Assembly: GCF_014905135.1 (NCBI RefSeq)
Contig: NZ_CP041406.1
Coordinates: 1,674,001 to 1,738,000, forward strand
Source of the DNA: Sulfurimonas paralvinellae
GTDB taxonomy: Bacteria; Campylobacterota; Campylobacteria; Campylobacterales; Sulfurimonadaceae
Reading direction: 5' to 3'
Length of the DNA stretch: 64,000 bases
A program made the translations under genes and the position numbers. Every line of letters starts with the position of its first letter. Position 1 is the stretch's first letter. Positions 11,826 to 18,162 of the stretch are shown here, piece by piece. A model generated the notes under the pieces. The model searched no databases, was not told where the DNA came from, and saw nothing but the letters and a program-made list of their open reading frames with translations.

Positions 11826-11879
11826 ATGTTTGGTGCACTAATTTTACTTAAAAAAAAAGGGGGGGGGGATCTGCCATGA
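11826..11879 (+). promoter_or_regulatory. Upstream ORF crossing the poly-A/poly-G tract
   Basis: ATG at 11826 opens a 17-codon frame (MFGALILLKKKGGGDLP) preceded by GAGCGG. It reads through the whole A9G10 tract and stops at TGA 11877-11879, which overlaps the ATG of the large downstream gene as ATGA. At the present length of ten G this gives a coupled stop/start. One G more, or two fewer, would fuse the two frames. One G fewer would make the upstream frame run on past the start out of frame. The frame arithmetic is read directly; regulation is inference. Confidence 0.4.
11850..11868 (+). repeat. A9G10 homopolymer tract (candidate phase-variation site)
   Basis: Nine A followed by ten G, ending seven bases before the start codon at 11876. 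Poly-G tracts of this length are the classic slipped-strand contingency loci of Campylobacter and Helicobacter. Here the G run also sits where the ribosome-binding site should be, so its length changes both the spacing and the frame of the upstream ORF. It is the only long G tract in the window. Confidence 0.85.
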
Positions 11880-14800
11880 AGTCATTTTCAAAAAAAACAA
11901 TTTTTTTATTATTACTTATCATAATACCCACATCATCAATTGCTGCAACAGCATGTACTGGAACAACAGCTACCTGTTCTTATGATATCACAGCTGCAGA
12001 ATTGGCCTCACAAATAGAAGGCTCTGGTATCACTATTACGAATCCAGTTATTACCCATGGTTCTGGTTCCCAAGTAGGTATTTTCTCAAATGGAATTAAT
12101 GGATCCAATTTAGAAATTGATGAAGGAATCACACTTACCTGTATGAGTGTTGAAGAATCCTTTACAACTAATAGCTCATGGAGTACTTCAATTACTGCTT
12201 CAGACACATATACTGATGCTGACTTAACCGGTATTGACGATAAAGCAATATATAACCCTGTAATCTTTGAGTTTGATGTTACATTAGATGAGAATACACG
12301 TCTTTTATTGATTGATTATCAATTTGCTTCTGAAGAATACAATGAGTATGTAGGTTCCCAATATAATGATGCTTTTGGCTTTTTTATCTCAGGTGGTGAT
12401 TTAAACCAAACATACAATATAGCAAGAGTCGTTGACAATCAGACATATGTAACCATCAATGATATTAACAATTATGACACTGTCACTTTAAATAATGTCA
12501 ATAACGGAACTGCTGGACAATATGGGACACAAGCAAATGTCAATACAGCCAATACAGCTTATTATATAGACAATGATCAAAACAACCAAGGAGGAACTTC
12601 TCCAGTTCTTGTAGAATATGATGGTCTTACACATACACTACATGCTACGCTTGACAACCTTACACCGGGAGAGACCTATCATTTTAAAATGGCTATCGCT
12701 GATACTGCCGATGCATATTGGGATACTGGTGTATTCATTAACAAAATACGTGGTCTACGGGCACCAAAGCTTTGTTATGACTATGCTTATAAACAAAATG
12801 AAAGATATATCACTGCAGAATATAATGATAGTGTTGGTCCCTATATTGATACTGATGTATCTACAAGCGAACCACTTGAAATTGCAATGTACTTTAAAAA
12901 TCAAGAAGAATCTGATTTAGCAGTAAGCAATGTCAAACTCAATGTACTTGATATCAATACATCACAGGCAGCATATTCATCAGAGTCTGTATACGTTACA
13001 CAACCAGGTAGTGTCTACCCAGAACATATAGCAGATAATACTTTAGGTATGACTACAACTAATAGTGAAATACTTAACATACCAATCGATTCTTTTGATA
13101 GTTTTGAAAACTTCTATACATATTTTTCTATTAACCCTCAAACATCTCACTTGACAATGCCTATAGTCGCTAGACTTGATTACAATATCACTATTCCACT
13201 TTCAGCTACACAAAGCGTAACTCTTCCGCGCTCAAGTCTCATTGACCAGGATATTCCAATTTGTGGAGGCGGAGCATCTAGTTATAAACCTGCATACGGT
13301 CTATTTAATATCATAGAAAATGGGTTAAATCCTGGAAAAAGTGCAGGTGACAATAACCTGTTCTATAATTTAAATACTCAGGTTGTCAACAGAACTCCAA
13401 ATATATCTGTTGTTTCTATGGATGAGAACAATCTAGATACCTTAAAAGACATCAATGGTTCTGTGATAGTGGCTGTTGACATGGTGGACTTAGGAGCCTT
13501 TCATGATACAGTCGCTTCTTGTAACGAAGAGAGTAATGCTATTTCCAAGAGAGTATGGACAACAATTGACAATGCTGCACAGGCAGCTGTTTCCTTACTT
13601 CCTGGAGAAGCCCGTGTAAATGCCACATTTAGAGTGAGCTACAATGCTGACGGCAACAACACTGGAGCTTTACATCTCATACCTGCTGCGACAGATGGTA
13701 GTGGAAATGTTATATCTTGGAATGTAGCTAATTTCCCATCACTGGCGGGCAACAATTGTTTACAAGACATGGATGGCAATCCAAATAATGTAGATACAGT
13801 TCCTTCCTGGTGTAATAATGCAGGGACAGCTGCTGCATCAGCTATGGACTTTGATGAACTCGTGGCATGTCAACAGTGTATCTATGGATATGATACGAAA
13901 TTTATCTGTTCACGAGACAATTTTGCTGTTCGTCCTGAAGCTTTTCATATACAGATAAAAGATCAAAACCAAACTGTAACAACTGCAAATGAACCACTGA
14001 TTGGCACGAATACATCGACATCCCCTCTTAAATTAGCAGCAGGTTATAACTATATTTTAGAGATAAATGCTACAAATCATCTTGACAACAATGCATCACG
14101 AGGTTATTATACAGGCATTGATACAGCATATATTTGGTCTCCGCCAGTAGGAAAAGATATAAGCGGATGTAATGACGACAACAACTATACTGCCAATATC
14201 AATTTTGGCAATGGAATTGCCGACCAAAACACAAGTCTTAATCAAGTAGGTGCGTATAGTTTCAATATAAGTGACACGAAATGGACAGCAGTGGATAGTG
14301 ACCTTAATTATTTAATGGATACAAATAGGACTAATCATTATCTTGCACCTTATTCAGCCCACTTTTTAACGGGAACTGATTGTGTTCTCAATAGCGATTT
14401 TGTAGATCAGTCAGCTGTAAATGACAATCTTACTGGATGCGATATTAACAGTACACATTCTACGCATATAAGTAGTACACAGACAATTACATATAACGAT
14501 TTAAATATCAGTTTCTATCCTTATAAATTCGACATTAATGGATCAGTTACAGGCAATCCTATTCTTCCAACGGTAGGAATAAATTATCAAGCAGTAGCCC
14601 CAATCCATGCATTTGTCTATATGTCCGATATAAACAACAGTGCAGATGAAAACATGTCTTATCATCTCAACGGATTTATATCCGCAGCAGGCTACAATGA
14701 TGTATTAGTAGGTAATTTTGTAGAAAAATGTTATGCAACTCCATTAACAATCACTATAAAAACAACAAATAGAGATCTTAATGATACGGAGGGTAATCAT

Positions 14801-15634
14801 GTAACGTTTAGAGCAAGATTTCACGATGTAAACAAAACAACCACTAAACCTATCACAAATTTAGATGTCAATGTAAGTGACACTGCACCTAATGTTGCAG
14901 AGTTTCAATTTGATACAAACGAAAGTCATTTTTATAAAACATCAAATGGTAGCATAAGGACATATCTCAACCTCAATTATGATAGAAATGTAACCAAAAC
15001 GGTCAATCCAAAAGCAATAATTTTTCTCTCTTATGATGTAAATGATACCAATATAAGCCATGCTTTCCATGCAGATCTGCTTAATAATAAAACTTCTGAA
15101 ATGAAAAAGGATCTCAACACTACGCTACCTATTAAATTTTATTATGGTCGTGCTCACGCAGGAAAACAAAGATTTGAAGTACCGACAGACAATCCGTATA
15201 CTACAAATATTTATTATGAAATCTACTGTTATAATGCAGGCTGTAATCTTGCACTGATCCCTAGTATCCAGCATGTTGATGATATTCGCTGGTATCAAAA
15301 TACATTACATGTGACGACAAATGATGGTAATGTCAGTAGTCCGCTAACAGAGCAGGGAGCGTTCAATGTAACATCAAGCATCCCTGCCAACGGAACGAAT
15401 ACAACAACGGCAAATCTTAACTATAATGGAGCTCTTGGTTATCCATACACAACCACTATGGAAATCAATGCGTCCAATTGGCTAATTTATAACGAAAACG
15501 ATGCAAATGCGCAAACAAACCCTTTTCAAGTAGAATTTAACAATGCTAATAGCAGCTGGAGTGGTGAGAGAGAAACAACCACAACCACAAAAGCATCCAA
15601 TGTTTCAAAAACGAACAGGAGAACAATGTGGTAA
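11876..15634 (+). CDS. Large exported surface protein with choice-of-anchor L domain
   Basis: 1252 residues with a signal peptide (MKSFSKKTIFLLLLIIIP, cleavage near residue 25). Residues about 30-290 match the choice-of-anchor L pattern (SQVGIFSNG, DEGITLTC, FQFASEEYNEYVG-like, DAFGFFISGG, ETYHFKMAIAD). Residues about 420-640 have more beta-rich segments. A Cys cluster CQQC-IYGYDTKFIC near 660-680 precedes a FAVRPEAF segment resembling DUF6701/MshQ-type proteins. The second half is Thr/Asn/Asp-rich beta sequence. About 25 extended bacterial N-glycosylation sequons (D/E-X-N-X-S/T) are present, mostly after residue 680. No C-terminal sorting signal or TM helix is seen. Translation overlaps the next prepilin gene by seven bases, which suggests a pilus-associated adhesin. 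Function otherwise unknown. Confidence 0.72.
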   Translation: MKSFSKKTIFLLLLIIIPTSSIAATACTGTTATCSYDITAAELASQIEGSGITITNPVITHGSGSQVGIFSNGINGSNLEIDEGITLTCMSVEESFTTNSSWSTSITASDTYTDADLTGIDDKAIYNPVIFEFDVTLDENTRLLLIDYQFASEEYNEYVGSQYNDAFGFFISGGDLNQTYNIARVVDNQTYVTINDINNYDTVTLNNVNNGTAGQYGTQANVNTANTAYYIDNDQNNQGGTSPVLVEYDGLTHTLHATLDNLTPGETYHFKMAIADTADAYWDTGVFINKIRGLRAPKLCYDYAYKQNERYITAEYNDSVGPYIDTDVSTSEPLEIAMYFKNQEESDLAVSNVKLNVLDINTSQAAYSSESVYVTQPGSVYPEHIADNTLGMTTTNSEILNIPIDSFDSFENFYTYFSINPQTSHLTMPIVARLDYNITIPLSATQSVTLPRSSLIDQDIPICGGGASSYKPAYGLFNIIENGLNPGKSAGDNNLFYNLNTQVVNRTPNISVVSMDENNLDTLKDINGSVIVAVDMVDLGAFHDTVASCNEESNAISKRVWTTIDNAAQAAVSLLPGEARVNATFRVSYNADGNNTGALHLIPAATDGSGNVISWNVANFPSLAGNNCLQDMDGNPNNVDTVPSWCNNAGTAAASAMDFDELVACQQCIYGYDTKFICSRDNFAVRPEAFHIQIKDQNQTVTTANEPLIGTNTSTSPLKLAAGYNYILEINATNHLDNNASRGYYTGIDTAYIWSPPVGKDISGCNDDNNYTANINFGNGIADQNTSLNQVGAYSFNISDTKWTAVDSDLNYLMDTNRTNHYLAPYSAHFLTGTDCVLNSDFVDQSAVNDNLTGCDINSTHSTHISSTQTITYNDLNISFYPYKFDINGSVTGNPILPTVGINYQAVAPIHAFVYMSDINNSADENMSYHLNGFISAAGYNDVLVGNFVEKCYATPLTITIKTTNRDLNDTEGNHVTFRARFHDVNKTTTKPITNLDVNVSDTAPNVAEFQFDTNESHFYKTSNGSIRTYLNLNYDRNVTKTVNPKAIIFLSYDVNDTNISHAFHADLLNNKTSEMKKDLNTTLPIKFYYGRAHAGKQRFEVPTDNPYTTNIYYEIYCYNAGCNLALIPSIQHVDDIRWYQNTLHVTTNDGNVSSPLTEQGAFNVTSSIPANGTNTTTANLNYNGALGYPYTTTMEINASNWLIYNENDANAQTNPFQVEFNNANSSWSGERETTTTTKASNVSKTNRRTMW

Positions 15635-16227
15635 AAAGATATGCATTTACGATGATCGAGCTAATATTTGCTATTGTCATCATATCAATTGCCATTGTCT
15701 CTCTGCCTGTTATGACAAACACGACGCAAAAAGGGGTCGAGCAGAATATAGTACAAGAAGCCATCTTCGCTGCTTCTGCGCAGCTAATGGGAATCATGTC
15801 CGGATATTGGGATGAACTTTCTATGCAAGACAATGCTCTTAGTAATCTTTCAAGAGTCATCAATATAGGCGGTGATTGCGATGCAGTTACACGAATGAGA
15901 CCAGGACATATTGCTCAGCCTTTTCATCGCCGCTGTTTAAATAATGATGTAAACCCTGCAAACTTAAGTGCAACAGGCGGCAATTTTTATTCACTTGATG
16001 ATGCTGTTGCTGCTGTCAATGGGACAGCTGATATATTTGATAATCCAAATGCATCTGATACAGGGTATAAAGATACTTATACAAGTACAGCAACAATTTC
16101 AAGAACAAACGACTTAAAAAAGATTGCTGTCTCAATTCAAGACAGCAATGGCAATACAATTACAAAACTTATCAGTTACAGTGCAAATATCGGTGAGCCG
16201 GAATACTATAAAAGGACTATGCAATGA
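15628..16227 (+). CDS. Type IV prepilin-like protein (minor pilin/pseudopilin)
   Basis: A 199-residue protein with a class III (prepilin peptidase) signal: VKRYA|FTMIEL, where the mature protein starts at Phe with Glu at position 5. A hydrophobic helix IFAIVIISIAIVSLPV follows. The rest is a globular domain with two Cys. The start is GTG at 15628, supported by AGGAG seven bases upstream; it overlaps the stop of the surface protein. It is probably a minor pilin or pseudopilin of a type IV pilus or type II-like system. No assembly ATPase, platform protein or peptidase is in the window. It overlaps the next prepilin gene by four bases. Confidence 0.85.
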   Translation: MVKRYAFTMIELIFAIVIISIAIVSLPVMTNTTQKGVEQNIVQEAIFAASAQLMGIMSGYWDELSMQDNALSNLSRVINIGGDCDAVTRMRPGHIAQPFHRRCLNNDVNPANLSATGGNFYSLDDAVAAVNGTADIFDNPNASDTGYKDTYTSTATISRTNDLKKIAVSIQDSNGNTITKLISYSANIGEPEYYKRTMQ

Positions 16228-17123
16228 TGCGCCGTTATGCTTTTACAATGATAGAGCTTATATTTGTTATTGTGGTAATGGGAATATTGGGAAAATACGG
16301 AGTTGAATTCCTTGCACAGGCATATCATAACTATATATTTGCACAGGTAAACAATCAACTACAGGCAGATGCTGAAATGGCAGTTGAAACGATTGCTGCA
16401 AGATTGCAGTACCGTATAAAAGCATCTGTTATTGGTCGCAAATCAAGTGACAATACATTTGTAGCTATCCAGAGTGCAAGCGGAACACAGTACAATATAT
16501 TAGAGTGGGTAGGGAGTGATGAAGAGAGCTTTCGAGGGAAAACAGCTCCTTATTGGAGCGGAATTATAGACTTAGATGACTCCAATGCTACCTATCTGGC
16601 TTCTCCTGGAACGAACACTGCCGAGATAAACAATATAATTGATGCTCTTGCACATAATAGTGGTACCGATATTAATGACAGTGCCATCTACTTTGTCGGT
16701 TCCAACAGTAACAGCCAACAATGGGGATGGACGATTCCACATGCTGCTTTTATTGATCAAAGCAATGCTATGCATCCAATACAGACAGATGCAAACACTT
16801 CTGTTCTCATTCCAAAAGTCGGTTCATTCAGCGGAGAAGATGTTTATGAATATTATAAACTTGCATGGACTGCTTATGCAGTTGGTATAAAAGATTATGA
16901 TGCTGCTACAAACAAGGGCACTCTTACACTTTGGTATGATTATCAGCCATGGGAAGGAGATGATTATACAAAAGCAACAACACAATCCTCTGTTATCATG
17001 GAAAATGTAAGTACATTCCAATTTCGTGCAGTAGGGTCTGTCATAAAAATTCAAGTCTGTGTAAAATCAGATTTAATAGAGGATGAAAAGTATTCATTAT
17101 GCAAAGAAAAAACAGTTTTTTAA
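16224..17123 (+). CDS. Type IV prepilin-like protein, PilW/GspJ-like
   Basis: 299 residues with the prepilin signal MMRRYA|FTMIEL followed by the helix IFVIVVMGILGKYGVEFL. The size and the later domain (many aromatic residues, C-terminal pair of Cys in KIQVCVKSDLIEDEKYSLC) fit the larger minor pilins of the PilW/GspJ kind. Three extended N-glycosylation sequons are visible (DSNAT, DINDS, DANTS). It starts within ATGATG overlapping the stop of the previous gene, and its end overlaps the next gene by 25 bases, so the three pilin genes are one translational unit with the surface protein. Confidence 0.8.
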   Translation: MMRRYAFTMIELIFVIVVMGILGKYGVEFLAQAYHNYIFAQVNNQLQADAEMAVETIAARLQYRIKASVIGRKSSDNTFVAIQSASGTQYNILEWVGSDEESFRGKTAPYWSGIIDLDDSNATYLASPGTNTAEINNIIDALAHNSGTDINDSAIYFVGSNSNSQQWGWTIPHAAFIDQSNAMHPIQTDANTSVLIPKVGSFSGEDVYEYYKLAWTAYAVGIKDYDAATNKGTLTLWYDYQPWEGDDYTKATTQSSVIMENVSTFQFRAVGSVIKIQVCVKSDLIEDEKYSLCKEKTVF

Positions 17124-17563
17124 GACATTCAGCTCATAAAAGAAGATCGGGAATAGCTATGATAATGGCTATTATGGTAATTGTTATTATTGCTACCATT
17201 ATGGCACTAGCCTTAGCGCTTACATCACAAACGACTAAAAGGACAACAGATATCTATCTTCATGAACAAGCATCTCTCTATTCAAAAGCAGCAGCAGAAT
17301 TAGCACTTTTGAACATTGCAAAAAACGGTTGTTCTAATAATTACAATCATACTTTTGGAGATGCAGGAGAAATCAAATATGATGCAAATGTAACCATGCA
17401 ATATATCTATACTGTTCCAATTGGAGGATGCACCCAATATATTACCATTCATACTCCTGAAGAAAGTGGCTCTGTCATGATGGATATAGCAGTAACACTG
17501 CATGACCCTTCAATAACAAGCGAACCTATCCGCTATTTTAGAAGAACTATCCAAAAATTATAA
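17099..17563 (+). CDS. PilX-like minor pilin
   Basis: A 154-residue protein. A basic N-terminus (to about residue 17) precedes SGIAMIMAIMVIVIIAT and a further hydrophobic stretch, then a small domain with two Cys. The pattern resembles PilX N-terminal domains: the hydrophobic helix follows a Gly but lacks the Glu5 of ordinary pilins. That is also true of GspK/PilX-type tip subunits. One sequon, DANVT, is seen. It is last in the accessory operon; no hairpin terminator was found after it. Confidence 0.7.
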   Translation: MQRKNSFLRHSAHKRRSGIAMIMAIMVIVIIATIMALALALTSQTTKRTTDIYLHEQASLYSKAAAELALLNIAKNGCSNNYNHTFGDAGEIKYDANVTMQYIYTVPIGGCTQYITIHTPEESGSVMMDIAVTLHDPSITSEPIRYFRRTIQKL

Positions 17564-17628: not shown

Positions 17629-18162
17629 ATGAATATTTCTTTAACAGGCAGAAATTTAGAACTGACAGACGCTATCAAGCAACATATGACAGCATCTATA
17701 GAAGCACTTAAAAAATACAATATGGACATTATTTCTGCAAATGTAATTGCAACGACTGCGACAAGAAAAGGAAAAGAACACTTTAACATAGAGTTTGTTC
17801 TTAACCTTCCTCAAAAAAACACTATTGTTATCAATCAACATGACAGTGATCTCTATGCAGCTATTGACATTGCGTTAGAGCGTGCGGAAAAAGCACTTCG
17901 TCGTTTACATGACAAAGAAGTCGATCACCATAAAGTCGGTCTTAATGAACTTAAAGCAGAAATTGTCGATGTAAAAGAGGTAGCCGAAGAGATGGAAGAT
18001 GAGATCATCCCTGTAGAACTTGATCTTTACAAACCACGTGAAGTCGAAGATGTTCTCAGCGACCTCAAAGAGAGCGGAAAAATGTTCGAGATCTTTGTGG
18101 ACAATGAACATAAAACTCGTGTTCTCTACAAAAGAAACGACGGTAAATTCGGTCTTTATTAA
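17629..18162 (+). CDS. hpf: Ribosome hibernation promoting factor, long form
   Basis: A 177-residue long-form HPF. The N-terminal S30AE domain (1-100: MNISLTGRNLELTDAIK, YAAIDIALERAEKALRRL) blocks the decoding centre. The C-terminal domain (about 118-177: VELDLYKPREVEDVLSDL, NGKFGLY-like end) dimerises ribosomes into 100S particles. It has its own promoter and is monocistronic. Its stop overlaps the recG stop by four bases on the opposite strand. The KPREVEDVL stretch matches the usual KP-x-S/x-x-EA region of long HPFs. Expected to act in stationary phase or starvation. Confidence 0.92.
   Translation: MNISLTGRNLELTDAIKQHMTASIEALKKYNMDIISANVIATTATRKGKEHFNIEFVLNLPQKNTIVINQHDSDLYAAIDIALERAEKALRRLHDKEVDHHKVGLNELKAEIVDVKEVAEEMEDEIIPVELDLYKPREVEDVLSDLKESGKMFEIFVDNEHKTRVLYKRNDGKFGLY

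Follow-up and report, generated by a model that had tools for sequence, protein, structure and literature searches.

The window analysed here, a stretch of 64,000 nucleotides from Sulfurimonas paralvinellae (contig NZ_CP041406.1, positions 1,674,001 to 1,738,000 of the forward strand), raises the question of what is built from an operon in which a gene for a large protein, here called BIG, is followed by three prepilin-like genes, P2, P3 and P4, and which machine builds it. The answer favoured here, with a probability of roughly 0.7, is that the operon encodes the tip of a type IV pilus of the mannose-sensitive haemagglutinin (MSHA) type, in which BIG would provide a glycosylated stalk carrying an exchangeable, glycan-poor head.

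The four genes lie on the + strand at 11876-17563 and overlap one another by 7, 4 and 25 bp, which bears out the overlapping four-gene operon described in an earlier note made from the letters of the window, and the prepilin traits that it had attributed to the last three products are likewise confirmed. BIG (11876-15634, +, ATG start) encodes 1252 aa and is a candidate secreted tip protein and a diverged homologue of the DUF6701/MshQ type. P2 (15628-16227, +, GTG start, 199 aa) and P3 (16224-17123, +, 299 aa, MshO-like by its size and place) are type IV prepilins with the motif A^FTMIE; both score above the cut-off of NCBIfam TIGR02532, and with Pfam N_methyl P2 reaches 21.6 bits (cut-off 21.2) and P3 18.5 bits, below that cut-off. 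P4 (17099-17563, +, 154 aa) is a PilX/GspK/MshP-like prepilin (G^IAMIM) without Glu5, which matches the GspK model weakly (E 1.6e-6, under the cut-off of that model), and Glu5 is absent from every one of the 65 P4 relatives with a readable motif (66 in all). A prepilin without Glu5 is described as a trait of PilX and GspK in the cited passages of PMC7541494. The second and third pilin-like proteins also carry glycosylation sequons of the extended PglB type (D/E-X-N-X-S/T), three in P3 and one in P4, as had been remarked before; P2 has none.

This gene arrangement recurs in other Campylobacterota. In an order-level sample of 199 genomes (a second sample, at the level of the phylum, comprised 397), BIG was detected in 68 and P3 in 144, P3 being present in 67 of the 68 BIG-bearing genomes. 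Among named relatives those of Sulfurimonas are closest, and records of Sulfuricurvum, Sulfurovum, Sulfurospirillum, Hydrogenimonas and Nitratifractor also contain members of the family. Among loci fetched via BIG, 38 of 41 from genomes (the window and 40 others) have the pilin genes adjoining it, the exceptions being L077-L079 of family f16; five of 79 named loci stop at BIG, and in each of the remaining 74 one or more of the pilin trio is found among the four open reading frames (ORFs) that follow. Viewed from P3, in 40 loci chosen mostly for an undetected BIG or a missing PglB, a large ORF (>500 aa, or truncated where the contig stops) lies directly upstream in 25 and a 499-aa ORF in one, the others having none or a contig end at that place. 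Pilin genes that travel without the large protein, which the earlier note had named as the case that would speak against its proposal, form a minority, made up of family f16 and several fragmentary assemblies with no large ORF at the pilin genes; elsewhere the linkage is kept, and it is strong, if not absolute. At L068:3788-14365, and also in L208 and L223, a tandem pair of BIG ORFs precedes a single pilin trio, and one pilus machine could in such cases display alternative tips.

The BIG protein begins with a putative Sec signal peptide (aa 1-23, 11876-11944, +; read off the translation, the cleavage site not being tool-predicted), which is followed by a head, a long body and a short C-terminal tail. 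The head (aa 42-290, 11999-12745, +) is a choice-of-anchor L domain with one extended sequon and matches NCBIfam NF038133 with 175 bits (cut-off 27, E 1.5e-51), and the body or stalk (aa 291-1252, 12746-15631, +) is predicted to be a multi-domain beta protein and contains 26 extended sequons and 14 cysteines. Within it, aa about 661-1210 (13856-15505, +) are homologous to DUF6701, as found with hhalign by comparing an alignment of 49 BIG bodies with one of eight proteins, all eight of which are Pfam DUF6701 proteins (probability 100, E 2.1e-40, 402 columns). The likeness to MshQ/DUF6701 suspected earlier is upheld by this comparison, the segment CSRDNFAVRPEAF that had been singled out at the time falling in the aligned region; MshQ of Vibrio cholerae is here taken to be a DUF6701 member. 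The Pfam DUF6701 model itself matches in 31 of the 397 genomes of the phylum (27 above its cut-off), and these matches include BIG proteins beside pilin genes in other genomes, e.g. G127 and G064, as established by comparing coordinates. On these profile comparisons, BIG is a diverged DUF6701 homologue and not a Pfam member. Outside the head no significant Pfam match was obtained for the window protein, and the C-terminal beta-propeller of PilY1 was found neither with Pfam in the window BIG nor with a PilY1 model in the 49-row body alignment.

Modelled alone with AlphaFold2, the body appears as a chain of beta domains (predicted local distance difference test score, pLDDT, of 86.2; predicted TM-score of 0.76). 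Foldseek with the body model returned low TM-scores only, and sequence searches of the PDB gave nothing for BIG or the body profile and nothing convincing for the head profile (E 0.49 or worse). With VIA-align, the first body domain (model residues 7-169, aa about 295-457) came out near immunoglobulin (Ig)-like domains of Gram-positive pilins and adhesins (Z about 9-11), a proximity that, at an identity of at most 13%, was taken to reflect a common beta-sandwich and not kinship; this comparison speaks against no other family. One relative, at L058:5667-16001, is a giant BIG of at least 3444 aa that extends past its stretch and has 67 extended sequons against 8.3 expected.

The heads of 91 proteins comprise one class with 74 members, the choice-of-anchor L class with 14 and three singletons, these classes coming from clustering with a coverage rule, as low stringency merged all heads. 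Within the choice-of-anchor L class the heads are 68% identical and the bodies 43%, the head being the more similar of the two in 59 of 60 pairs compared (91 being possible). Since a second head class stands on the same body, and the heads are more conserved than the bodies to which they are attached, module exchange is indicated, and the comparison points to a head/body mosaic with exchangeable heads. Some relatives carry domains of the adhesin type (cadherin, Calx-beta, DUF11, Ig). At the other end of the protein the tail (15566-15631, +), which ends in TNRRTMW, is a candidate docking peptide for the minor pilins. Its last residue is Trp in 97 of 108 BIG proteins, Arg in 10 and Lys in one, and a conserved tail that is modelled with low confidence in the lone protein is as expected of a docking peptide. 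Between seven R-tail loci and 25 of 57 W-tail loci that passed length filters (150 of 300 W-W pairs), body identity is 0.346, compared with 0.332 among the W-tail loci themselves. For the pilins, identity declines from W-W to R-W pairs from 0.344 to 0.241 in P2 and from 0.389 to 0.264 in P3, and from 0.352 to just 0.322 in P4. It is therefore suggested, although not proved, that the tail type tracks the type of P2 and P3 rather than that of the body.

No pilus assembly genes were recognised among the examined neighbours of the operon, the remainder of the 64-kb window having been listed as ORFs only; this agrees with the earlier note, which had supposed that a pilus system encoded elsewhere is used, and such a system was found. 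The sole secretin found in the genome is MshL by NCBIfam TIGR02519 (271.9 bits, cut-off 250.2), and beside it is encoded an extension ATPase with the MshEN domain PF05157 (59.2 bits, cut-off 23.1) and with PF00437 (422.8 bits). This MshL/MshE cluster lies about 1 Mb from the tip operon, and the machinery, the presumed major pilins and the tip operon occupy three separate places on contig C1, at about 0.68 Mb, 0.25 Mb and 1.69 Mb. The ORFs of the cluster are MshG-, MshE-, MshM-, MshN-, MshK-, MshJ- and MshI-like, several of these names being given from order and size alone, by what we take to be the Msh gene order; the MshM-like ORF matches AAA_22 (46.5 bits) and the MshJ-like one PilO (22.4 bits, cut-off 22), and the MshI- and MshK-like ORFs had no family match in the profile searches. 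Two further PF00437 proteins in the genome read like what we assume to be PilT and PilU, one prepilin peptidase is present, and two short prepilins, the major pilin candidates, adjoin a gene that we read as priA-like. Of the 144 genomes with P3, 141 have an MshL-type secretin, as do 39 of the 55 that lack P3; these figures include weak secretin matches and are not corrected for descent. By its secretin and its ATPase the system is to all appearances of the MSHA type, with a dispersed gene layout. A major-pilin candidate of 156 aa at L038:3435-3905 has two extended sequons against 0.1 expected, and the pilus shaft may be glycosylated as well.

The same machine might alternatively act in the manner of a type II secretion system (T2SS), with BIG as the cargo of a pseudopilus, later released or left on the outer membrane, and with P2-P4 as the tip of the pushing pseudopilus. 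The likeness of P4 to GspK would fit such a role, T2SS and type IV pili have parts in common, and PilY1 is compared with T2SS substrates in the cited part of PMC7541494, but the sole secretin is of the MSHA pilus class, its ATPase has an MshEN domain, the operon is tightly co-inherited and MshQ sits in the pilus operon of V. cholerae (PMC4624765, as cited in part), and the cargo role is considered unlikely. An operon that serves a DNA-uptake (competence) pilus instead of a surface adhesion pilus is more doubtful still. Because only one secretin is present in the genome, any transformation pilus must share the machine, and near pglB a small protein resembling ComEA is encoded together with another prepilin, both named by our own reading; large exchangeable heads and the adhesin-type domains of some relatives, however, suit varied surfaces better than DNA.

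The assignment of BIG to a pilus tip is accompanied by a second property, the density of its sequons. The window BIG contains 27 extended sequons, compared with 2.6 ± 1.5 expected from 1000 composition-keeping shuffles, an excess of about tenfold. All of 42 BIG ORFs lie above expectation, with 8 to 67 sites each; 64 complete named BIGs hold 1095 sites against 176 expected (L187 being lowest, with 3 against 2.3), and in the non-redundant set (126 BIG ORFs, reduced by C-terminal identity to 113) 2086 are found against 302. The minor pilins of the named relatives share this excess (172 against 22 in P2, 165 against 22 in P3 and 85 against 9 in P4), whereas none is seen in 415 flanking ORFs of the 79 named loci (81 sequons against 106.5 expected) or in a sample of ORFs of the same genome outside the operon (106 against 114), in which no ORF exceeds three. 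Within the BIG proteins the enrichment is confined largely to the bodies, as counted in 91 of the 113 with a locatable body start and a head of more than 100 aa: 1533 sites in 85,728 aa against 160.5 expected, compared with 132 sites in 46,761 aa against 87 in the heads. Across 49 aligned bodies 829 sites are spread over 179 columns, the commonest of which is used in 36 rows, and sequon density thus appears to be kept while most positions turn over. Most sites lie in aa about 689-788 and 889-1088, and a single site, counting every row, falls in the cysteine-dense segment aa 639-688. Asp is enriched 4.7-fold and Glu 2.5-fold at position -2 of N-X-S/T, neither being enriched when +2 is not Ser or Thr; an acidic residue at -2 is not enriched before Q-X-S/T and hardly so before D-X-S/T (1.07 and 1.22). 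This excess makes the window BIG a predicted PglB acceptor, and the genome encodes a PglB of 732 aa. DUF6701 proteins of other genomes are sequon-rich as well (L152 27 against 2.4, L155 26 against 1.5, L160 33 against 2.2).

That the excess has nothing to do with glycosylation and stems from composition or from metal-binding loops is very improbable and was rejected: BIG is rich in Asn (11.7%), D-x-N motifs occur in calcium-binding loops and some PglB-bearing genomes lack the excess, but the shuffles keep composition, the control motifs (D.N.[DN], D.D.[ST], D.D.D, [DE].N.G and Q-centred ones) are at or below chance or within 15% of it, Glu is enriched at -2 as well as Asp, Pro is depleted at +1 after [DE].N, and the excess all but disappears in the heads of these proteins and is missing from the genes nearby.

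PglB was found in 157 of the 199 genomes, in 64 of 68 with BIG and in 129 of 144 with P3, and the relation between the enzyme and the sequons was tested on 22 loci. In some cases the two go together: G041 (no STT3, 100% complete) has 10 sequons against 3.3 expected and none in its pilins, and its sister G118, with PglB, has 22 against 3.6; the genome of L187, without STT3, has 4 against 2.7. A strict rule, by which sequons are present with PglB and absent without it, nevertheless fails, both in family f11 and in several STT3-negative assemblies. In family f6, the loci G094 and G081, with PglB, show about a 3-fold excess. At L039:2709-3658 and L080:1259-3457, another prepilin gene (219 aa) and a helix-hairpin-helix (ComEA-like) gene of 82 aa stand no more than a few kb from pglB, a neighbourhood that is possibly another link between glycosylation and pili or competence.

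It has to be noted that a number of results weigh against the proposed glycosylated tip. Eleven other genomes in which no STT3 was found have sequon ratios of 5.8 to 24, and while incomplete assemblies or a missed enzyme may lie behind this set, most of the assemblies being fragmented, G022 (99% complete) and G056 (100%) are hard to set aside in this way. Family f11 has PglB, yet the sequons of its operons are 0 to 1.5-fold of expectation in four of six loci and about 2.5-fold in two, which shows that PglB by itself does not fill the operon with sequons. In the genomes of family f16, BIG is encoded away from the pilin trio. The Pfam DUF6701 model (PF20419) has no match in the window BIG, the AlphaFold2 model of the head is poor (pLDDT 56), and the covariation of the tail with P2 and P3 in the seven R-tail loci probably goes back to one event in adjacent DNA. 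As a separate observation on family f11, L147, L174, L178 and L179 are complete BIG-pilin operons nearly free of extended sequons in genomes that encode PglB.

In the model proposed here, BIG would be exported to the periplasm by Sec, following which PglB would glycosylate as many as some 27 of its Asn residues, almost all of them in the multi-domain body. The protein would then dock on the minor pilins by way of the conserved tail at its C-terminus, and P2-P4 would prime the fibre that BIG caps, by analogy with PilY1 and the minor pilins of Myxococcus, whose presence together at the pilus tip is the experimental precedent (PMC7541494, in the passages cited). Extension of the major pilin behind this complex by the MshE/MshG motor would push it out through MshL. 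Outside the cell, the glycan-coated stalk would present the glycan-poor exchangeable head, here of the choice-of-anchor L class, which would bind its target; the glycans would space or hydrate the stalk or protect it from proteases, leaving the head free, and the PilT/PilU-like motors may retract the fibre.

A wider proposal is put forward more tentatively and is held at somewhat less than even odds. In sulfur-oxidising Campylobacterota the main client of PglB would be the tip of the MSHA-type pilus, with a glycan-armoured stalk and a bare, exchangeable head, and its task could be a grip on solid elemental sulfur or minerals, with which these bacteria have to make contact to oxidise them, the grip on sulfur being the boldest and a frankly speculative guess. 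MshL is reported to be up-regulated on elemental sulfur in Sulfurovum indicum, a member of a genus without flagella (PMC10045233), and sulfur oxidation by strain ST-27 to require direct contact (PMC9948710); the passages cited from these two sources do not concern the operon.

Of the features around the operon, a G10 homopolymer tract beside an A9 tract (11859-11868, +) stands 7 bp ahead of the start codon of BIG and is the sole G/C run of at least 9 in the 479,503 bases of this genome that were sampled. No comparable tract was found upstream in the other 93 relatives having at least 200 bp of upstream sequence (1/94 overall); phase variation as a trait of the whole family was rejected on this count, and the tract is possibly a lineage-specific phase-variation switch. 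A hibernation-factor gene follows downstream, at 17629. Scans for promoters and terminators gave promoter numbers at chance level and were left out of account.

The scale and location of the sequons, the choice-of-anchor L head and the exchange of heads go beyond what the earlier note had described. A literature search, limited to result listings and the passages cited, turned up neither a description of this operon nor one of an N-glycosylated MshQ, and nothing on DUF6701, choice-of-anchor L or MSHA-type pili of Sulfurimonas, and pili, glycosylation and adhesins are not mentioned in the part of PMC10066037 consulted. MshQ, which is counted among the MSHA components without known function in the cited passage of PMC9815625, would gain a testable role from the combination of head, stalk and docking tail. 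The family predicts bacterial proteins that are very densely N-glycosylated and suggests a purpose for PglB in free-living Campylobacterota, and what should surprise specialists is the combination of a glycan-dense stalk and a bare, exchangeable head.

Among known systems, the MSHA operon of V. cholerae (mshC-D-O-P-Q with MshE/MshL machinery; gene order from the part of PMC4624765 cited) resembles the present one in its MshL secretin, MshEN-domain ATPase and PilT-type motors and in the minor pilins that adjoin a large DUF6701-type protein. It differs in that the DUF6701-type gene is last there and first here, in that machinery and structural genes share one locus there and occupy three separate places here, and in that the tip protein here is dense in PglB sequons and has exchangeable heads. 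PilY1 and the minor pilins of Myxococcus xanthus cluster_3 offer, in the passages cited from PMC7541494, a large soluble protein with a variable N-terminal and a conserved C-terminal part, one minor pilin without Glu5 and a functional model of priming and of a tip complex. BIG differs in having no match to the PilY1 beta-propeller and in its homology to DUF6701, and would work like PilY1 without being a member of that family. The PglB system of Campylobacter jejuni shares the acceptor rule with an acidic residue at -2 (PMC4894442, in the part cited, which also lists PglB of Sulfurimonas denitrificans), and a PglB homologue is encoded here; the difference lies in the up to tens of sites on one protein, no other ORF in the genome sample exceeding three. 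With the choice-of-anchor L proteins of NF038133 the BIG head is allied by a match above the curated cut-off, and differs from them in that it is carried on a DUF6701-type body for which at least one further head class exists. By analogy, such a bare-headed glycosylated stalk might be viewed as equivalent, in bacteria, to a glycosylated adhesin stalk.

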